Origin: Planctomycetes bacterium GWF2_42_9
GTDB taxonomy: Bacteria > Planctomycetota > Phycisphaerae > Sedimentisphaerales > UBA12454
Assembly (NCBI GenBank): GCA_001825675.1
Contig: MHYA01000070.1
Location: 1 to 33,972, forward strand
Direction: 5' to 3'
DNA length: 33,972 nucleotides
This document shows, piece after piece, positions 5,145-33,972 of this stretch. Each line of letters starts with the position of its first letter. Within the stretch, counting starts at the first letter, position 1. The notes under the pieces were generated by a model. That model worked only from the letters and a program-made list of their open reading frames with translations, made no database searches and was not told the DNA's origin. A program made the position numbers and the translations under genes.

Positions 5145-6444
<1,300 letters not shown>

Positions 6445-15705: not shown

Positions 15706-15804
15706 AGTTTGAGTTCACAATTACACAATGTACAAGATTACTAATTGGAAAAAAAAATAAGATAGGTTCGTGCATTGCGCGATAGCATTGGAAAGGAAAA
15801 TCAA

Positions 15805-16893
15805 ATGGGCGTACAAATTTATAAACAGAAAACGAGCGGTGATTGGTATGTTTGGATCACGCACAAGGGACAGAGGACATCCCGAAAGATTGGGGAAGAT
15901 AAGAAGCTTGCCATGAAGGCCGCGAAGATGTACCGCGAACAGTTGGCTCTCGGTCAAGTGGACTTCAGCAACGGCAAAAAACTTGATAAGGAAACTCTCA
16001 CCTTTGGAAACTTCTGCAATGATTACCTTGAGAATGTGGCAAAGCAGCGGCTGAAACATAATAGCTGGATCTCCTACAAAAATCTGATCGACTTGCATTT
16101 ATTACCAATATGGAAAGACAGGCCGCTTAATTCGATCACGAAGCAGGAAGTTAAGACTCTGCTGCTCGAAAAACAAGCCACAGGGATCGTAGTCAATAAC
16201 TTACGCATCTGCATCAGTGCTGTTTTCGCGGAAGCGGTCGAACGTGAAATTCTCGTTGTCAATCCCGCGCATGGCTTGGGCAAGACCTTCAGAAGACATG
16301 AAGCGAAAAAGCACACGCAATTTTTAAGTAAAGAACAGGTTTCAATTTTACTTGACGCGGCTAAACAGGAAAATGCCGAATACTATACTTTTCTGCTTGT
16401 GGCTTTCCGCACGGGAATGAGGCTCGGTGAACTTTTAGCTTTGAGTTGGGACTGCGTTAATTTTGAAACTAGGCAAATTGCGGTTCGCAGAAGTTACAGC
16501 CATGCGCATTGGGATACGCCTAAATCTCACAAAATAAGATTCATTGATATGAGCGATGGACTGATCGAGACATTAAAACGCAGATATGAAAAAGCGAAGC
16601 AATTAGCCGATTTCAAGAAAACATCTTTGGTTTTCGCGGATATCAACGGCGATCCGATAAATGACAATATCTTTAGACGCGGCGTTTTCTACAAAATGCT
16701 TGCAAAACTAAATCTGCCAAAAATCCGAATACATGACATAAGACATACTTATGCGTCGCTGCTGTTACAAGCTAACGCCCCTATCCATTATGTAAAAGAA
16801 CAGATGGGACATAGCTCGATCACGACAACAGTAGATTTATACGGGCACTGTCAACCTAGCCAAAATAGGACAGTATTAAATTCGTTGGATTAA
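15805..16893 (+). CDS. Tyrosine-type site-specific integrase
   Basis: This phage-type tyrosine recombinase has about 362 residues: an N-terminal arm-binding region (1-60), a SAM-like core-binding domain (about 66-160, LTFGNFCNDYL onward) and a catalytic domain (about 170-355). The full catalytic set is visible: Arg206 (RTGMRLGE), Lys240 (TPKSHKIR), His310-x-x-Arg313 (HDIRHTY), His336 (MGHSS) and the nucleophile Tyr346 (VDLYGH). It should catalyse integration and excision at the tRNA-Ser site where it sits. A frame opens at TTG 15775, but ATG 15805 is chosen because AAAGGA lies eight bases before it and homologues begin with MGVQIY-like strands. The C-terminus ends soon after the Tyr, as is normal. 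The transposase frame starts only 25 bp downstream. Confidence 0.95.
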   Translation: MGVQIYKQKTSGDWYVWITHKGQRTSRKIGEDKKLAMKAAKMYREQLALGQVDFSNGKKLDKETLTFGNFCNDYLENVAKQRLKHNSWISYKNLIDLHLLPIWKDRPLNSITKQEVKTLLLEKQATGIVVNNLRICISAVFAEAVEREILVVNPAHGLGKTFRRHEAKKHTQFLSKEQVSILLDAAKQENAEYYTFLLVAFRTGMRLGELLALSWDCVNFETRQIAVRRSYSHAHWDTPKSHKIRFIDMSDGLIETLKRRYEKAKQLADFKKTSLVFADINGDPINDNIFRRGVFYKMLAKLNLPKIRIHDIRHTYASLLLQANAPIHYVKEQMGHSSITTTVDLYGHCQPSQNRTVLNSLD

Positions 16894-16917: not shown

Positions 16918-18136
16918 ATGTTTGAAAGAAAGATCAAGACCAGCTAATTGATGAACTGCTAAAAGGCTACACCGGTCCCAATTCATTCTGGGGCGAAACC
17001 GGCATATTCGCCCAGCTCAAGAAGAAGATTATCGAACGTACTCTCGATGCTGAGATGGACAATCATCTGGGCTATTCCAAGCACGACCCAAAAGGACACA
17101 ACAGCGGCAATTCCCGCAACGGTAAAGGCAAAAAGACCGTTGTCATTGATTCTGAACCAGTAGAACTTGAGCCGCCGAGAGACCGCAACGGCAGCTTTGA
17201 GCCACAACTTGTACCAAAACGCCAAAAATATTTTGAAGGCTTTAACGACAAGATACTTGCGATGTATGCCCGTGGTATGAGCGTTCGGGATATACAGGCT
17301 TGCCTGCTTGACATGTACAAAGTTGATGTTTCCGAAGGACTAATCAGCCAGGCAACTGAAGGCATTATGGAAGAAGTCAAAGCATGGCAGAATCGCCCAC
17401 TTGACAGTGTTTACCCGATAGTGTTTCTGGACTGCATTGTAGTAAAGAGCCGAGAAGATGGCAAGGTTTCCAATCGCAGCGTATATCAGGCATTGGGAAT
17501 AAATATGGAAGGCCAGAAGGAGCTTTTAGGGATTTGGATAGCTCAATCTGAAGGAGCCAAGTTCTGGCTTGGTGTTATTACAGAGCTTAAAAACCGCGGA
17601 ATAAGGGATACATTCATTGCGTGTGTAGATGGCTTAAAAGGCTTTCCAGAGGCTATTGAAAGCGTGTTCCCGCAAACCCAGATTCAGCTTTGCATAGTTC
17701 ATATGATTCGCAATTCCGTCAAGTATGTCAACTGGAAGACCGCAAGGAGTTATGCAAAGACCTCAAGAAAATATATTCATCCTCTACCGAACAGCAGGCT
17801 GAAACTCAACTCGATGCGTTCGCAGAAAAGTGGGACAGCAAGTATCCTACCATCAGCAAAATGTGGCGTCAGCACTGGGAACGTATAATTCCATTCTTTG
17901 ATTATCCATCAGATATTCGCAAAGTAATTTATACAACCAATGCGATAGAATCCTTGAACCGGTCATTGCGTAAAGTTATCAAAACCAAGGGAGCGTTTCC
18001 CAATGACGCATCGATACTGAAGATATTTTATATGGCACTTGCAAATATATCGAAAAAGTGGACGATGCCGATAAGGACATGGAATGCTGCGATAAGCCAG
18101 TTTGCTATAAAGTTCGCCGGCAGAGTCGAACTGTAA
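16918..18136 (+). pseudogene. IS256-family transposase with two frameshifts
   Basis: Joined across two breaks, this encodes a mutator/IS256-type DDE transposase. Visible signatures are GYSKHDPKGHNSGNSRNG, PRDRNGSFEP and VPKRQ in the DNA-binding half, then catalytic Asp in VFLDCIVVK, Asp in ACVDGLKGF and Glu in TTNAIESLNRSLRK. Break 1 is near 16931: ATG 16918 opens a frame that stops after nine codons, and one missing base would join it to the main frame. Break 2 is near 17737: AAGACCGC should read AAGGACCGC, restoring W-K-D-R-K-E-L. The longest intact pieces are about 16926-17888 and from about 17690 to 18136. Both lesions are single-base losses in an otherwise well conserved protein, so they are recent or are sequencing errors. 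AAAGGA precedes ATG 16918. Confidence 0.9.
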
Positions 18137-25825: not shown

Positions 25826-26191
25826 TTATTCTAGAGCATACCCCATAGTTGTGTAATATGCTAAGTTTGGTTGCGTAATATCCATTCTTCCTATCTGCGC
25901 CACAACTGGCAATTGACTGCGAACGACTAAAGCATATTGACCAAAGGGGATTTGGTAATTATTTTCACCCACGGGCTTATCTAACCTAAAGCATCTAACT
26001 CGTTGCCCCTTAATGACAGATTTTATATTCTTCATAGGTTCATCGTTATCAAAATAAATATCAAATTCCACAATTGTATCTTGATCGTTCATATTTAGAA
26101 TAACAAGCGATTCGTGGCCAAAAGGCTCTTTATCGCCGGGCTGCGGCAAATCACCGTCAGGGAAAACCCAAACTCTTTTACCTGTATCCAT
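25826..26191 (-). CDS. ASRT-family (Anabaena sensory rhodopsin transducer-like) small protein
   Basis: The 121-residue single-domain beta-rich protein has the recognisable ASRT core: KRVWVFPDGDLP (5-16), GHESLVILN (25-33), VRCFRLD (65-71) and a strongly conserved end QPNLAYYTTMGY (107-118). The founder is the tetrameric transducer of the Anabaena sensory rhodopsin. Comparative work by Aravind's group proposed that the superfamily binds small molecules, probably sugars, and is common in carbohydrate operons. No rhodopsin gene is present here, so a sugar- or metabolite-binding role inside this catabolic block is more likely than photosensing. AGGAGC precedes ATG 26191. It lies 12 bp after the M24 gene. 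Confidence 0.85.
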   Translation of the reverse strand: MDTGKRVWVFPDGDLPQPGDKEPFGHESLVILNMNDQDTIVEFDIYFDNDEPMKNIKSVIKGQRVRCFRLDKPVGENNYQIPFGQYALVVRSQLPVVAQIGRMDITQPNLAYYTTMGYALE

Positions 26192-28694: not shown

Positions 28695-29612
28695 CTAACA
28701 GATACGGCTTTCTCTTAGGTACTTCTGTAACGGCAGAATATGTATTTCCTGTTCCAATTGGTCTATGTCTATATCCTCTGAAACTACGGTAATCATCATT
28801 CTGCCATCATGTTCCATGAGCTTAACATCAATTTTTCCACCATACCTGGCAAAAAGTTCTTTTAGTATTAGCTGATTGCCATCAAGGTGGTAAATTCGAC
28901 TTTCCAGATTTAGGGTGCATGCAATCCAGCGAGGGTGAAATCCGAATTCCACTGTAGAAGTACGCGTCCCCGCTTGAATAAGAATATTTCCATCTCTATC
29001 ATAAATAATCGATTCCCATGGAAATGCACAAATCAATGGAACTCCGCTGCTAAAAGCCCAAAACTCCATCAATTTCCCTCCATAAGTATAGGAAGGAAAT
29101 ACCATCAGATCAATGCCTGCAGAAATATAATTCCACAGTAAGTCCTGATAGTTACAATCAAAACAGATCGCAGTGCCTATTCGCATTCCATCCAAAACAA
29201 TCGGCTGCTGCAATGCTTCTCCCGGCCGTATGCCTAAATTTCTTTCTGCACTTGTAGGAACAGCTTTACGATATTTCCCAGCCACACTGCCGCTTCTATT
29301 TACATAAATCGTGCTGTTATATAAACGACCATTGTCATTTTCAATGATTGATACGCAAATATTAGTTGAAAAATCTTTTGAGATTCCAGATGCCATCTGA
29401 ACTGTAGGGCCGCTTATGGATTCGGAGGCACAGAAGTTGTGTTTGTCGAAATCAGGAACGATAGTTGTCTCAGGCAATACCAGCAAATCCGGACTTTGCT
29501 CTTTTAATAGTTCTATAACATGGATTCGGAGTAATTCGCGGCGTTTGTCGATAGTGTGGTTTAAATCCGGTTCAAAACAACTGGCAGCTACTCTATATCT
29601 TTTGAACTTCAT
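28695..29612 (-). CDS. Carbon-nitrogen hydrolase (nitrilase superfamily)
   Basis: The 305-residue protein carries the nitrilase Glu-Lys-Cys triad: Glu48 (LPETT), Lys116 (KYRKAVP) and Cys150 (TAICFD). The superfamily hydrolyses nitriles, amides, N-carbamoyl groups and omega-amides through a cysteine acyl-enzyme. Sequence alone does not decide the branch; an amidase or carbamoylase is more common than a true nitrilase. The C-terminal 60 residues extend beyond the catalytic fold. AGAGG precedes ATG 29612, which lies inside the last 20 bp of the upstream cysteine-rich gene, so translation is coupled. It is the last gene of the upstream block. Confidence 0.9.
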   Translation of the reverse strand: MKFKRYRVAASCFEPDLNHTIDKRRELLRIHVIELLKEQSPDLLVLPETTIVPDFDKHNFCASESISGPTVQMASGISKDFSTNICVSIIENDNGRLYNSTIYVNRSGSVAGKYRKAVPTSAERNLGIRPGEALQQPIVLDGMRIGTAICFDCNYQDLLWNYISAGIDLMVFPSYTYGGKLMEFWAFSSGVPLICAFPWESIIYDRDGNILIQAGTRTSTVEFGFHPRWIACTLNLESRIYHLDGNQLILKELFARYGGKIDVKLMEHDGRMMITVVSEDIDIDQLEQEIHILPLQKYLRESRIC

Positions 29613-30051
29613 AATCCTCTTTCATTTTTTTTATTCTAAGTTTGCATTTTGCGTCTTTGCAATTACTCAGGTCTATTTCATAATTAAATCCTAAAGGTTC
29701 AAGGACTCGTCTGTAAAGAGTATCGCAATGTTCACAATAATACTCATAAGGCTTAATATGTTTTTCTTCCAATAATCTCCCCATGCTAGGACAGTAACGC
29801 ATGTCAATTTCAAAAAGCCCGGTATCTTCGTCAAGGCTCATTTTGAAATCGGCTGCTTCTTCGGTAAGGCTGCGGCTCCAATATTCAAAACATCCTGCCA
29901 GACCTTTCTTCTCTGCTAACTCTCTTAGATTACCTAAAAAATTATCCGAAAGGATTTCCCAAAATCTGAATACCGCTTCCTTGCCGCCCTTTTCATCGAG
30001 AAACTTGAAAAGTTCGCTATATGCAGGTATAAATTCTGTACAGGATATCAT
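29593..30051 (-). CDS. Cysteine-rich small protein B (paralogue of neighbour; ATC-hydrolase-like?)
   Basis: The 152-residue protein is helical in its first 65 residues. It then has a cysteine pattern: Cys87-Pro88 (MRYCPSM), Cys106 and Cys109 (YYCEHC), and Cys131 and Cys136 (NCKDAKC). The layout, with CP, then YC about 19 residues on, then a GF/GY strand and a last Cys about 15 residues later, is shared with the adjacent 165-residue protein, so the two are diverged paralogues. It vaguely recalls the L-2-amino-thiazoline-4-carboxylate hydrolase family (cyclic C-N opening), but I cannot confirm this. A metal- or redox-binding protein is equally possible. AAAGG precedes ATG 30051. It overlaps the nitrilase start by 20 bp. 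Confidence 0.6.
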   Translation of the reverse strand: MISCTEFIPAYSELFKFLDEKGGKEAVFRFWEILSDNFLGNLRELAEKKGLAGCFEYWSRSLTEEAADFKMSLDEDTGLFEIDMRYCPSMGRLLEEKHIKPYEYYCEHCDTLYRRVLEPLGFNYEIDLSNCKDAKCKLRIKKMKEDYEVQKI

Positions 30052-30054
30052 AAA

Positions 30055-30552
30055 TTAAACCTTTCTACATCTTGTAGCTTGTTCAAAGTTTTCTATCCAG
30101 ACTTTTTGAACACATTTACCTTCACCAGATTTATATTCACACGTGAATTGATAGCCCGCGTCATTGCATATTGTCTTATTGACGATAACAGTCGTTTGAC
30201 AATATCTGTCTGTAAAAAACGAACCCGTTTTTTTGAGATGTGCTATCGCTGGGCATTGTTTTACTTCACAAATTAATTTATCATTTTCACAATAAATATT
30301 AAATTCACCTTGTTCTTTTTTAAATATATTTTTCCAATGGCTTCGCAGTGCCTCAAGACCTTCTCTTTTTAACTTCTCCGACAATGGCTTAAAATATGTT
30401 TTGCCAACCTGAATTAAATATTCTTCAGTCGCTTTTTCGCCAAAATTATCATCCAGATATTTAATGGCATAACATAACGCACCATGAAAATCTTTGTGCA
30501 GATATTCATTATCAGACTGTTTACAATCGATAACTTTTATTTTATCAGGCAT
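30055..30552 (-). CDS. Cysteine-rich small protein A (paralogue of neighbour; ATC-hydrolase-like?)
   Basis: The 165-residue protein has an N-terminal helical part (about 20-80: HGALCYAIKYLDDNFG, then a Lys/Glu-rich helix). Its cysteine pattern is Cys95, Cys100-Pro101 (VKQCPA), Cys118 (DRYCQT), Cys129, Cys138 and Cys147 (GKCVQK). It aligns by eye with the neighbouring protein B around CP, YC and the last Cys. The genes are 3 bp apart, which suggests equal expression and possibly a heteromer. It lies 6 bp after the aldolase gene. There is no signal peptide or membrane segment. The link to the L-2-amino-thiazoline-4-carboxylate hydrolase family is a tentative recollection; otherwise the function is unknown. 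Confidence 0.6.
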   Translation of the reverse strand: MPDKIKVIDCKQSDNEYLHKDFHGALCYAIKYLDDNFGEKATEEYLIQVGKTYFKPLSEKLKREGLEALRSHWKNIFKKEQGEFNIYCENDKLICEVKQCPAIAHLKKTGSFFTDRYCQTTVIVNKTICNDAGYQFTCEYKSGEGKCVQKVWIENFEQATRCRKV

Positions 30553-30558
30553 ACTTCG

Positions 30559-31422
30559 TTATCTTTCTCTCTTCATAAATGGGAATATAACATTATTATC
30601 CATTATACCTTTTTCCTTGAGTTTGCTCTTGATAGCATACATCCAATCGGTCAAAAGGTCATTACCAAGCATATCATCCATATCTTTGCGGAACCGCTGC
30701 TGAAGCTTGAAAGATTTTAGCTGGTCTTTTTCAACTGTTGCCGCATTATACAATTCCACAAGAGTATCTACAAACGCTGTTCCGCCGCCTGTGATTACGC
30801 CATCTGCACCCATCAACAGACTGATGTCATACACATTTTCATCGCCCTGTAATATCTGACATGGCCTTTTGTTGACATCTGGATATCTTCGCAAAAGTTC
30901 GGTAAACAGATATATATCTCCACTGGAATCCTTAATGGCTTTAATTTGCGGAACCTGCATAATCTTGAGGATTGTATCAAGATTTGCTTTGTTGCCGGTT
31001 GCGCCTGGACAGTGATAAAAAACCATCTGGCAATCAAGTTCGCTGCTAATCTTTTCTACCGAATTCAACAAGCTATCCGGATGAGGAAACCTATAATAAA
31101 ACGGCGTCGTCATTACCATATAGTCGGGGTTAAGTTCTTTGAACTTTTTGCCTAACTCAATCATTCTTCTGGTGGAAACTTCTGCTATACCAGCAAGAAC
31201 TGGAACTCTTTTCTTTGCGTGTTCTACCGCGGTCTTAACCACTACAAGCTTTTGGCTGTCAAGCAGTGCAGGACCTTCACCCATATTACCTAATACGAAT
31301 ATTCCGTTTGCACCCTGTGTTATGACATAATCAATGAGCTTTATTAATGACTGAATATCAACATCTTCATTTTCAAGCAAAGGTGTTGGCAATGCTGTTA
31401 TAATTCCGCTTAACTTTGACAT
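30559..31422 (-). CDS. Dihydrodipicolinate synthase / N-acetylneuraminate lyase family aldolase
   Basis: This class I aldolase of about 287 residues is a TIM barrel. The Schiff-base lysine is Lys164 (IKAIKDSSGD), the catalytic tyrosine is Tyr136 (FYHCPG), and GNMGEG (45-50) is the pyruvate-carboxylate loop, usually GTTGE. The family includes DapA, NanA and 2-keto-3-deoxy sugar acid aldolases. The sialidase-like and SDR neighbours argue for sugar-acid or nonulosonate cleavage to pyruvate plus an aldehyde, not for lysine synthesis. A frame opens at TTG 31440, but ATG 31422 is chosen because GAAAGG lies upstream and homologues start with a KLSGIITALPTP-like strand. It lies 26 bp after the SDR and 6 bp before the cysteine-rich pair. 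Confidence 0.9.
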   Translation of the reverse strand: MSKLSGIITALPTPLLENEDVDIQSLIKLIDYVITQGANGIFVLGNMGEGPALLDSQKLVVVKTAVEHAKKRVPVLAGIAEVSTRRMIELGKKFKELNPDYMVMTTPFYYRFPHPDSLLNSVEKISSELDCQMVFYHCPGATGNKANLDTILKIMQVPQIKAIKDSSGDIYLFTELLRRYPDVNKRPCQILQGDENVYDISLLMGADGVITGGGTAFVDTLVELYNAATVEKDQLKSFKLQQRFRKDMDDMLGNDLLTDWMYAIKSKLKEKGIMDNNVIFPFMKRER

Positions 31423-31448
31423 TTCTCTAAAACCTTTCAAGTTTTTTA

Positions 31449-32222
31449 TTATGCGTGAAGACCGCCGTCCATTAGAATATTTTCGCCTGTGATATATGAT
31501 GATGCCTCGGATGCCAGAAATACCACTACACCTTTTATATCGTCGTTGTTAGCTAATCTGCCCAGTGGAACTTTTTTATTATACTTTTCCACAAATTTTT
31601 CATTCTGGCCTGCATATAAACCGCCCGGACTTATGCAGTTTACCCTGATTTTTTTAGGACCGAGCTTTCTTGCCAAATACTTGGTTAATGCTATCATGCC
31701 GCCCTTATGGAAATGATAATCCGGAGGTGAGTCCATTTCTGTGCCTTCATATAACGAAAAATCGGGACCAAACATGCCCTGCATGGAGCCTATATTAACG
31801 ATAGAACCTCCGCCTCTTTTTTCAATCAAATCAGACATTTCACGAACGATATCAAACATGCCCGTTGCATTTATATCCATAGATGTTCGCCAGCATTCGA
31901 GAGGGTCAATATATCTCTTCATAGGTCTGGCAACTGCATTGTTTATAAATATATCAAGGCCGCCAAAGACACTCTCAATTTCATCTTTGAGCTTTGTTAT
32001 TGATCCATGTTTAGCCTGGTCAACATATCTTGCATGAGCATCAAGCCCTCTTGCCTTAAATTCGTCAACAATCTTTTGGGCGTTATCAAGGCTAGTTGAA
32101 GCTGTTATTACAGTACCACCGCATTCCAGAAGTGCCTCAAATATGCACCTTCCGTACAAACCCGCCCCACCAGTGATCAGGATTACCTTATTTTTTAATG
32201 AAAACATTTCAACAGTATGCAT
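31449..32222 (-). CDS. SDR family NAD(P)-dependent oxidoreductase
   Basis: The 257-residue classical short-chain dehydrogenase has the cofactor motif GGAGLYG (18-24), NNA (94-96), catalytic Ser146 (IGSMQG) and Tyr169-x-x-x-Lys173 (YHFHK), plus a typical C-terminal ILMDGGLHA. It has an unusually long segment between Ser and Tyr (about 23 residues instead of about 13), which may shape the substrate pocket. It probably oxidises a sugar, sugar acid or polyol hydroxyl in this block. ATG 32222 is used; ATG 32207 is also possible. It lies 77 bp after the sialidase-like gene, the largest gap in the upstream block, so a secondary promoter there is possible. Confidence 0.92.
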   Translation of the reverse strand: MHTVEMFSLKNKVILITGGAGLYGRCIFEALLECGGTVITASTSLDNAQKIVDEFKARGLDAHARYVDQAKHGSITKLKDEIESVFGGLDIFINNAVARPMKRYIDPLECWRTSMDINATGMFDIVREMSDLIEKRGGGSIVNIGSMQGMFGPDFSLYEGTEMDSPPDYHFHKGGMIALTKYLARKLGPKKIRVNCISPGGLYAGQNEKFVEKYNKKVPLGRLANNDDIKGVVVFLASEASSYITGENILMDGGLHA

Positions 32223-32299: not shown

Positions 32300-33412
32300 T
32301 TATTCTATCTTTAATTTGAACCAACGGATATTTGAAACACAATCTTCATAGCACCAGAAAGATACAAAAATAATTCCATCTTTCATATATGTTATGCAAG
32401 GTGCGCCAAAACGTAGCACATTGAAATTATGTGACATGTTTTCTGTTGAATCTGTTAGCCCCGAAGATTGATGCCCCCAAAGAGGCAGCTCAGCTTCATT
32501 GATCCATTTACTTCCTTTCAGCTGACTTACATTCGCCCATAATCCAGGCTTATCTATTCGGCGATATATACATAAGACCCTGCCATCATTCAGTATTAAC
32601 GGTGTAAGAGTCTGCCCCATCAATCCTGTTGATGCAGGTTGTGACCATGTTCTGCCTCCATCTGCGCTCAACGAATATTGATTAGGCATATCGCATTTAG
32701 TTATATCGTCATAGGCCCATGCAGTTGCGATCAGCCGGCCATCCGGCAATTCAGAGATTTTTGATTCCCAAAAAAATGTCTTTCCTTTAGGTTCATTCAT
32801 TACATCAATATATTGAGACCAGGTTTGTCCCTGATCGTTTGAAATTATTGCTATCATTCGGATGCCATTGGGGCAATCGCCATCCCATCCCGGCCAGGTC
32901 TGTGTTGGAATTATCCACCGACCATCACTGAGAATTGTAACTGGGCAGCACATTTCAAATGCAGGACCAATCAAAGGAGGATTTATTCTTTGGGGTGTTG
33001 TCCATTGTTTCCCTTTGTTTTTTGACCTCAAAAGCAAAAGTTCAGTAGGTACAAAACCAAGAGTTTTTTCATTTGTCAAACCTTCATTTAAGTGGGCAGT
33101 GCGATCATGGCGAATCATGAAAATCACAAGACTATCGTCCCGCAGTGCTGTCAATCTTGCACAATTTGAATGCGAATTAGATGAATCTATAAAAATTGAT
33201 CCTTCATTGCGCCAAGTTTCCCCATTGTCATTTGAGCGAAAAAGATATGTATTAAGGTCAGCTGATTCAAACGCCTGACCAAGAACAACAGTTGCTACCA
33301 TTGAACCATCGGAAAGAACTGCAACTGAAGGAAAATACGCATGAATGCTTTGTACATGAGGTCTGGGATTACGATAAAGCACTCCTGTTTTATAATTTTT
33401 AATCGGGTTCAT
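32300..33412 (-). CDS. Sialidase-like BNR/Asp-box beta-propeller protein
   Basis: The protein of about 370 residues has four Asp-box repeats (S-x-D-x-G-x-x-W type) at about 60-67 (SNDNGETW), 130-137 (SKNKGKQW, degenerate), 191-198 (SNDQGQTW) and 249-256 (SADGGRTW), the pattern of six-bladed sialidase propellers. A Glu in FFWESKISELPDG (about 214-226) fits the family's conserved acid. True sialidases also need an arginine triad, which I cannot confirm, and Asp-box proteins without sialidase activity are common. There is no signal peptide. ATG 33412 has GGTGA at good spacing and is preferred. GTG 33427, overlapping the previous stop by one base, is the alternative. It is coupled to the partial propeller gene upstream. 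Confidence 0.85.
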   Translation of the reverse strand: MNPIKNYKTGVLYRNPRPHVQSIHAYFPSVAVLSDGSMVATVVLGQAFESADLNTYLFRSNDNGETWRNEGSIFIDSSNSHSNCARLTALRDDSLVIFMIRHDRTAHLNEGLTNEKTLGFVPTELLLLRSKNKGKQWTTPQRINPPLIGPAFEMCCPVTILSDGRWIIPTQTWPGWDGDCPNGIRMIAIISNDQGQTWSQYIDVMNEPKGKTFFWESKISELPDGRLIATAWAYDDITKCDMPNQYSLSADGGRTWSQPASTGLMGQTLTPLILNDGRVLCIYRRIDKPGLWANVSQLKGSKWINEAELPLWGHQSSGLTDSTENMSHNFNVLRFGAPCITYMKDGIIFVSFWCYEDCVSNIRWFKLKIE

Positions 33413-33426
33413 TGTTTTCACCGTCA

Positions 33427-33972
33427 CTATTCTGATATTTGGATCAAATTGCCAGCTATATAAAAAGGGTCAGCTTCGGAGCCAAATCGTTCTAATAATT
33501 TTTTATTGTATAAATGAAAAACTACATAAACCTGGTTTTCGGAAACAGGTAAAAAACATGGATACCCTGCCATCCCCTCGGCAGGCCGCCACGCTTTTTT
33601 AAGATCATCCTCAGACCACTTTACATTGCTGTAAAGTTTTTCAAATTCCCCAGTAGGATCTTTGAGATGACATATTAATTTCCAGCTGTCTCCATTATCC
33701 TTGCTTGCGGCAATAGCTATACCTGGAGCATTGCCTGCATCACGAAAAGCAAAAAGTAATAGACCGTTAGGCATACAATATAATGCAGGTGATCCGCCTG
33801 CAAGTTCCAGTTGTATTGGCATTGTCCATGTTTTACCATTGTTCGATGATTTTATTTGCCAGAATTTTTTTTCAGGTTTTTTATCCGTTCGCGCAATCGC
33901 AACAAGAGACTTGTCCTTACAGACAACAACTGCTGTTTCATTAAAAATTAAGCATTCTTTCTCGCCATTGGG
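33427..33972 (-). CDS. Second sialidase-like BNR protein (partial, N-terminus beyond window)
   Basis: The frame is open from the right edge to the TAG at 33427, 181 codons, so only the C-terminal part is seen. It contains Asp boxes SSNNGKTW (about 33829-33852) and SKDNGDSW, and sialidase-like segments GSPALYCMPNGLLLFAFRD. It is a homologue of the neighbouring gene but clearly diverged. Whether it has a signal peptide cannot be judged. Its stop touches the start region of the next gene, so the two propellers are co-translated. It is the first visible gene of the catabolic cluster; the promoter lies outside the window. Confidence 0.85.
   Translation of the reverse strand, partial: PNGEKECLIFNETAVVVCKDKSLVAIARTDKKPEKKFWQIKSSNNGKTWTMPIQLELAGGSPALYCMPNGLLLFAFRDAGNAPGIAIAASKDNGDSWKLICHLKDPTGEFEKLYSNVKWSEDDLKKAWRPAEGMAGYPCFLPVSENQVYVVFHLYNKKLLERFGSEADPFYIAGNLIQISE

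Follow-up and report, generated by a model that had tools for sequence, protein, structure and literature searches.

What do two small proteins, encoded side by side behind an aldolase gene, contribute to the operon of Planctomycetes bacterium GWF2_42_9 in which they are found? The two genes, here called P2 and P1, lie in a stretch of 33,972 nucleotides (contig MHYA01000070.1; the window), in a run of minus-strand genes listed here from upstream to downstream:

32300..33427, minus strand: BNR-repeat sialidase-like protein (PF13088, E 1.1e-14)
31449..32222, minus strand: short-chain dehydrogenase, SDR (PF13561/PF00106)
30559..31440, minus strand: class I aldolase of the DHDPS/N-acetylneuraminate-lyase (NAL) superfamily (PF00701, E 4.9e-40)
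30055..30552, minus strand: P2, 165 residues, putative subunit paralogous to P1 (open reading frame and translation)
29593..30051, minus strand: P1, 152 residues, candidate V4R/ATC-hydrolase-like subunit by sequence and model (open reading frame and translation)
28695..29612, minus strand: nitrilase-superfamily protein (PF00795, E 7e-20), downstream of P1

The aldolase, with its Schiff-base Lys170 and Tyr142, adjoins P2 directly upstream. P2 and P1 are separated by 3 bp, and the last 20 bp of P1 are shared with the nitrilase gene. Downstream, a gap of about 300 bp separates these genes from the gene of a LacI-type regulator and from a second gene set, with M24 peptidase-like, ASRT, creatininase-like and other members. 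The ASRT gene (25826-26191, minus strand), which lies among the creatininase- and M24-type genes, encodes a protein with an Anabaena sensory rhodopsin transducer domain (PF07100, E 2.9e-27); this block recurs, at 80-93% identity, behind another P2-P1 copy (L053, 3181-7218). Elsewhere in the window, on the plus strand, enolase is present as two consecutive reading frames (5160-5774 and 5821-6444), as a frameshift or a mistake in the assembly would produce, and a phage-type integrase gene (15775-16893) precedes a transposase-like gene that is split between two overlapping reading frames (17055-18136), both named by eye from the sequence.

P1 and P2 are paralogues of no named family

Judged by sequence, P1 and P2 belong to no named Pfam or NCBIfam family; single-sequence scans of the two proteins against these collections matched no curated family, and we take the matches to Ig_2 (E 0.16) and SprT (E 0.005) as due to chance. 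Searches of PDB sequences gave no convincing match either. Geranylgeranyl pyrophosphate synthases (E 0.01) were discarded, the similarity being confined to one helical stretch, and a TRAPP subunit found with P2 (E 0.18) is a mere hint.

The relation between the two is much clearer. As single sequences they match in BLASTP with an E-value of 5e-7 over 88 residues; as profiles, built from alignments of their relatives, they match with a probability of 98% and an E-value of 2.3e-13. Because the profile-profile match spans 135 columns, sequence comparison makes them paralogues across nearly their whole length, beyond the similarity of their cysteine motifs. A reading made from the letters of the window alone (the sequence-only reading) had recognised here two related small proteins 3 bp apart; the reading frames are where it placed them, and the kinship it supposed holds at the level of profiles.

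The pair is conserved across phyla

Relatives of P1 and P2 come mostly from unannotated, largely metagenome-assembled genomes of Planctomycetota, Victivallales/Lentisphaeria, Omnitrophota, Bacteroidota and Clostridia. The pattern that one would look for in two subunits, a constant genomic pairing together with a fusion, is what we found: 65 of the 69 loci examined contain both genes, and in L009 they form a natural P1-P2 fusion. Three of the four unpaired loci are at contig ends, and the fourth, L089, has no recognisable P2. The gene order is nearly always P2 followed by P1, and in 39 of the 65 pair loci the two overlap by 4 bp.

Despite having no Pfam or NCBIfam name, the pair is present seven-fold, with one further remnant, in the genome of the window (4.86 Mb in 214 contigs, estimated contamination 7%), and searches with a P1 profile retrieved it from 38 of 137 genomes of one Lentisphaeria/Victivallales order. 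Further genomes matched by the same profile were 13 out of 35 for an Omnitrophota group, 3 out of 297 for a Clostridia order, 2 out of 295 for a Bacteroidales-type order and 4 out of 392 for the phylum of the window as a whole; a P2 search in the order of the window matched 9 of 161 genomes. No relatives of either protein were found in searches of viral contigs and plasmids.

Between-locus distances of P1 and P2 are correlated at 0.75, and at 0.64 with the aldolase signal removed (Mantel test, 0 of 500 permutations). Taken with the constant adjacency, the overlaps and the fusion, this correlated evolution supports the proposal of the sequence-only reading that two strongly diverged paralogues may be subunits of one complex. 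Tandem duplications of P1 do exist (L061, L062 and several of L181-L189) and would suit two merely duplicated small proteins that share no complex; we consider this very improbable, given a P2-P1 pairing that is constant across phyla, the overlaps, the fusion and the distinct invariant residues of each protein.

Several loci depart from the usual arrangement. Two P1 copies stand beside one P2 in L061, L062, L181, L183 and L185-L189, with three in L187. The remnant in the genome of the window (L057, contig C69, 2823-3122) is a single frame of 99 residues that runs from the start of P2 straight into the end of P1, next to an aldolase copy carrying an internal stop. In two loci of Bacteroidota (L007, 427-2235; L008, 3-1832) a protein that begins with a neutral-ceramidase-like domain (PF04734) has P2 as its C-terminal portion, and in two loci of the window's own genome (L053, 8631-9374; L054, 6966-7631) a gene for an SGNH/GDSL hydrolase either separates P2 from P1 or immediately precedes P2.

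The pair is linked to aldolases

The commonest neighbour of the pair is an aldolase of the DHDPS/NAL superfamily, found nearby in 47 of the 69 loci and directly upstream of P2 in 35 of the 59 loci that could be evaluated; near the pair in about a third of the 69 loci, the search picked up no DHDPS aldolase. In the genome of the window, all eight pair loci, the remnant included, are at DHDPS-family genes, accounting for 8 of the 15 that it encodes. The Schiff-base lysine and the catalytic tyrosine are kept in all 44 of 44 pair-linked aldolases, and in L190 an unrelated aldolase of pyruvate type (HpcH/HpaI) takes the same position upstream of P2. The coupling to an aldolase, as the sequence-only reading had it, is thus borne out well beyond this operon. 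Its second partner, the nitrilase, is peculiar to this window: no homologue (E <= 1e-10) is present among the other loci examined, and we reject it as a conserved member of the unit and regard it as an accessory of this copy only.

Other neighbours in the 69 loci are BNR-repeat proteins (23), SDR (17), aldo/keto reductases (11) and Gfo/Idh/MocA proteins (10), and genes for GntR or LacI regulators occur at some pair loci only. It is highly likely that P1-P2 has its role within the aldolase pathway. Among the operons of the window's own genome P1 varies least, with 63-91% identity between copies (median 73%), P2 more (48-68%), and the aldolase most (20-90%, median 58%). Because the aldolases vary while P1 stays constant, the pair probably acts on what their substrates would share, the 2-keto-3-deoxy end at which the ring closes.

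This constancy of P1 beside very different aldolases would also suit a pair with a different catalytic role, a step such as a dehydration or an isomerisation of the 2-keto-3-deoxy acid or of the aldehyde product. The 25 most frequent of the 116 Pfam families in the neighbourhood include no dehydratase, so a step may lack its enzyme, but that missing step is read from 25 families out of 116. To our knowledge, there is no enzyme of the P1/P2 fold that carries out a dehydration or isomerisation of such acids, and we hold this alternative to be quite unlikely.

Invariant residues differ between P1 and P2

In P1, twelve residues are invariant in 77 of 77 sequences: C87, C106, H108, C109, C136, E65, F7, Y11, F15, S89, Y105 and G121. 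In P2, H19, F22, H23, E80 and P101 are invariant in 63 of 63, and two more residues are nearly so: C100, the cysteine of the CPA motif (61 of 63), and D21 (60 of 63). The codons of the main motifs in the window are the following:

29791..29793, minus strand: P1 C87 of the CPS motif (invariant, 77/77)
29725..29736, minus strand: P1 C106-x-H108-C109, the YCxHC motif (invariant, 77/77)
29644..29646, minus strand: P1 C136 (invariant, 77/77)
30484..30498, minus strand: P2 HxDFH, H19 to H23 (H19, F22 and H23 in 63/63; D21 in 60/63)

The pattern CP...YC...G(F/Y)...C, which the sequence-only reading had attributed to both proteins, is present in both sequences of the window; in orthologues, the full cysteine set is a property of P1. 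Its expectation that the cysteines would be kept accordingly holds for the four of P1, and in P2 for the CP cysteine only, the remaining cysteines of the window's P2 varying among the 63 orthologues.

Both proteins are predicted to share the Bet3/V4R fold

AlphaFold models were obtained with a pLDDT of 91.2 and a pTM of 0.83 for P1, and 86.5 and 0.79 for P2, from small input alignments (21-22 rows, taken from the window and the related loci) in which P1 and P2 rows are mixed. In both models, N-terminal helices are followed by a strand pair, two helices and a second strand pair. Compared with the PDB by Foldseek, P1 and P2 match BcsD and the TRAPP subunits Bet3, Trs33 and Trs31, as well as TPC6; H-NOX is matched by P1, and the sensor domain of MopR (5kbh, TM 0.53) by P2. 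The scores are moderate, with E-values of about 7e-4 to 4e-2, TM mostly 0.4-0.56 and probabilities up to 1.0. The alpha/beta fold of Bet3 and V4R, expected of a V4R-type protein, is therefore what the predicted models show at these moderate scores, and on their basis P1 and P2 very probably have the Bet3/V4R/BcsD fold.

A relation between V4R and Bet3 has been published for this fold (PMC2253512), and a similarity among the ATC hydrolase, V4R and HNOB domains has also been pointed out, V4R and ATC hydrolase having a three-cysteine cluster (PMC5847659). P1-P2 looks like a branch of this V4R/ATC-hydrolase superfamily, placed by the tests that we made outside both PF14196 (ATC hydrolase) and PF02830 (V4R).

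Relation to V4R proteins and ATC hydrolase

The likeness to V4R consists of the predicted fold and of a cysteine cluster, which binds zinc in DmpR. The sequences give a weaker hint: 5 of 20 P2 members match NCBIfam MsvR across the V4R region, the best with an E-value of 1.2e-5 and 25 bits, where the cut-off is 220. P1 members have no NCBIfam MsvR match, and neither protein has a Pfam V4R match. The V4R domain of DmpR binds phenol and zinc, with cysteines C151/C177/C185 (PMC7264223), and the V4R cysteines of MsvR, C206/C232/C240 in MaMsvR, affect its redox-dependent DNA binding (PMC3729527). The main rival to an enzymatic or substrate-presenting pair follows this example: P2-P1 would catalyse nothing and would serve as a V4R-type sensor of a ligand or of redox state, binding a pathway intermediate or responding through its cysteines, and tuning the regulator or the enzymes of the operon. 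The fold and the MsvR matches indicate a sensor family. However, we found the pair fused to no DNA-binding or signalling domain, such as the DNA-binding or ATPase domain that sets V4R proteins apart from it; the linkage is to the aldolase and not to the regulator genes, which accompany only some loci; and the C-26-C-8-C spacing of DmpR and MaMsvR is not kept in C87/C106/C109/C136 of P1. We regard a sensor as a serious contender, though on balance an improbable one. If it were true, the pair would be a two-gene V4R-like system devoid of a DNA-binding domain.

The sequence-only reading had pointed to the L-2-amino-thiazoline-4-carboxylate (ATC) hydrolase family, and here the outcome is divided. 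PF14196 is the Pfam family matching most members of either protein, 3 of 21 for P1 (tied with one other family) and 6 of 20 for P2. These weak but repeated matches all stay below the cut-off, with best E-values of 0.0026 for P1 and 0.0054 for P2, and a PF14196 search of the window's own genome returned a single match, a P1 copy, at 14.9 bits against a gathering cut-off of 28.1 bits. Aligned by hhalign with true ATC hydrolases, the profiles reach probabilities of 1.2% and 6.2% (E 0.04 and 0.006), which is not significant, in a region that spans the cysteine framework.

P1 resembles ATC hydrolase in that framework and in the size of the protein. C146/C165/C193 are invariant in 12 true members with the spacing C-19-C-28-C; the three-cysteine framework of PF14196 is found in P1 as C87/C106/C136 (C-19-C-30-C) in all 77 sequences, and P2 keeps its first cysteine only. 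In contrast, P1 has a cysteine, C109, where most ATC hydrolases have an aspartate, and the pair differs from them by the absence of the TLAxG motif, by its two paired subunits and by its setting in an aldolase operon.

ATC hydrolase opens a five-membered ring (PMC10821248, PMC5847659). A true hydrolase of this kind, opening a lactone, a cyclic amide or a similar five-membered ring before or after the aldolase, would agree with the PF14196 matches, with the cysteine spacing of P1 and with the amide or ester hydrolases beside some copies: the nitrilase of the window, SGNH hydrolases elsewhere and the ceramidase-like domain fused to P2. Nonetheless, we think it unlikely, in view of the sub-threshold and non-significant scores above and of hydrolase neighbours that vary from copy to copy and may already perform that step.

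A proposed role for P2-P1

Our best explanation, which we put forward tentatively, is a metal-containing P2-P1 heterodimer that opens a cyclic sugar acid, or hands over its open form, for the aldolase of the operon. Within it, P2 and P1 would be the two unlike subunits, both of the Bet3/V4R/ATC-hydrolase fold. The cysteine cluster of P1 (C87, C106, C109 and C136) is most likely a zinc or iron site, still putative, to which P2 would add its N-terminal HxDFH motif and C100/E80, possibly adjoining the site of P1. The aldolase, of DHDPS/NAL type and once of HpcH/HpaI type, would split a 2-keto-3-deoxy sugar acid in a catabolic operon. The heterodimer, as a dedicated component of such operons, would then act for it as YhcH does for N-acetylneuraminate lyase. 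We favour this role by analogy, because N-acetylneuraminate aldolase uses the open form of its substrate, which is supplied by YhcH; as a step of its own, the opening or presenting of the substrate by P1-P2 is possible but doubtful. Counting against it are the V4R and Bet3 relatives, mostly non-enzymatic, the third or so of loci in which a DHDPS aldolase was not found nearby, the moderate Foldseek TM and the hhalign result with ATC hydrolases. The pair marks aldolase operons that probably degrade sugar acids.

Comparison with Bet3 heterodimers and YhcH

Our searches found no literature that joins V4R with an aldolase, and the closest parallels for the proposed heterodimer come from two separate systems. 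The first is structural. Bet3-family paralogues, whose sequences are little alike, assemble into homo- or heterodimers (PMC2253512); the Bet3-Trs33/Trs31 heterodimers of TRAPP, along with BcsD, are among the best structural matches of P1 and P2, and the heterodimer of paralogues that we propose parallels those of eukaryotic vesicle traffic. The roles of TRAPP and BcsD, in contrast, are vesicle tethering in eukaryotes and bacterial cellulose export, outside any metabolic enzyme context.

The second is functional. YhcH is a small zinc protein that supplies the open-form substrate to N-acetylneuraminate aldolase (PMC8141875). This metalloprotein (YhcH/NanQ, PF04074), encoded with the aldolase, serves as our model for the pair, from which it differs in being a single protein of another sequence family: Pfam scans gave no PF04074 match for P1 or P2, and a PF04074 search of these genomes matches other genes. 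None of the pair loci in the window's own genome contains YhcH. Because most of these genomes encode YhcH at another place, and two loci (G622:C70 and G1092:C29) have it near the pair, P1-P2 is not its clean replacement, and we reject a strict one.

More broadly, we can imagine, as a rather speculative extension, that pyruvate-type aldolases in Planctomycetota, Lentisphaeria and Omnitrophota have a ring-opening partner of general use in an unnamed two-subunit metalloprotein of the V4R/ATC-hydrolase superfamily, which would be a counterpart independent of YhcH and would serve many different ulosonic or 2-keto-3-deoxy sugar acids. If ring-opening is true, the pair would be a second solution, unrelated to YhcH, to the same problem, and it would help to identify the substrates of these operons.
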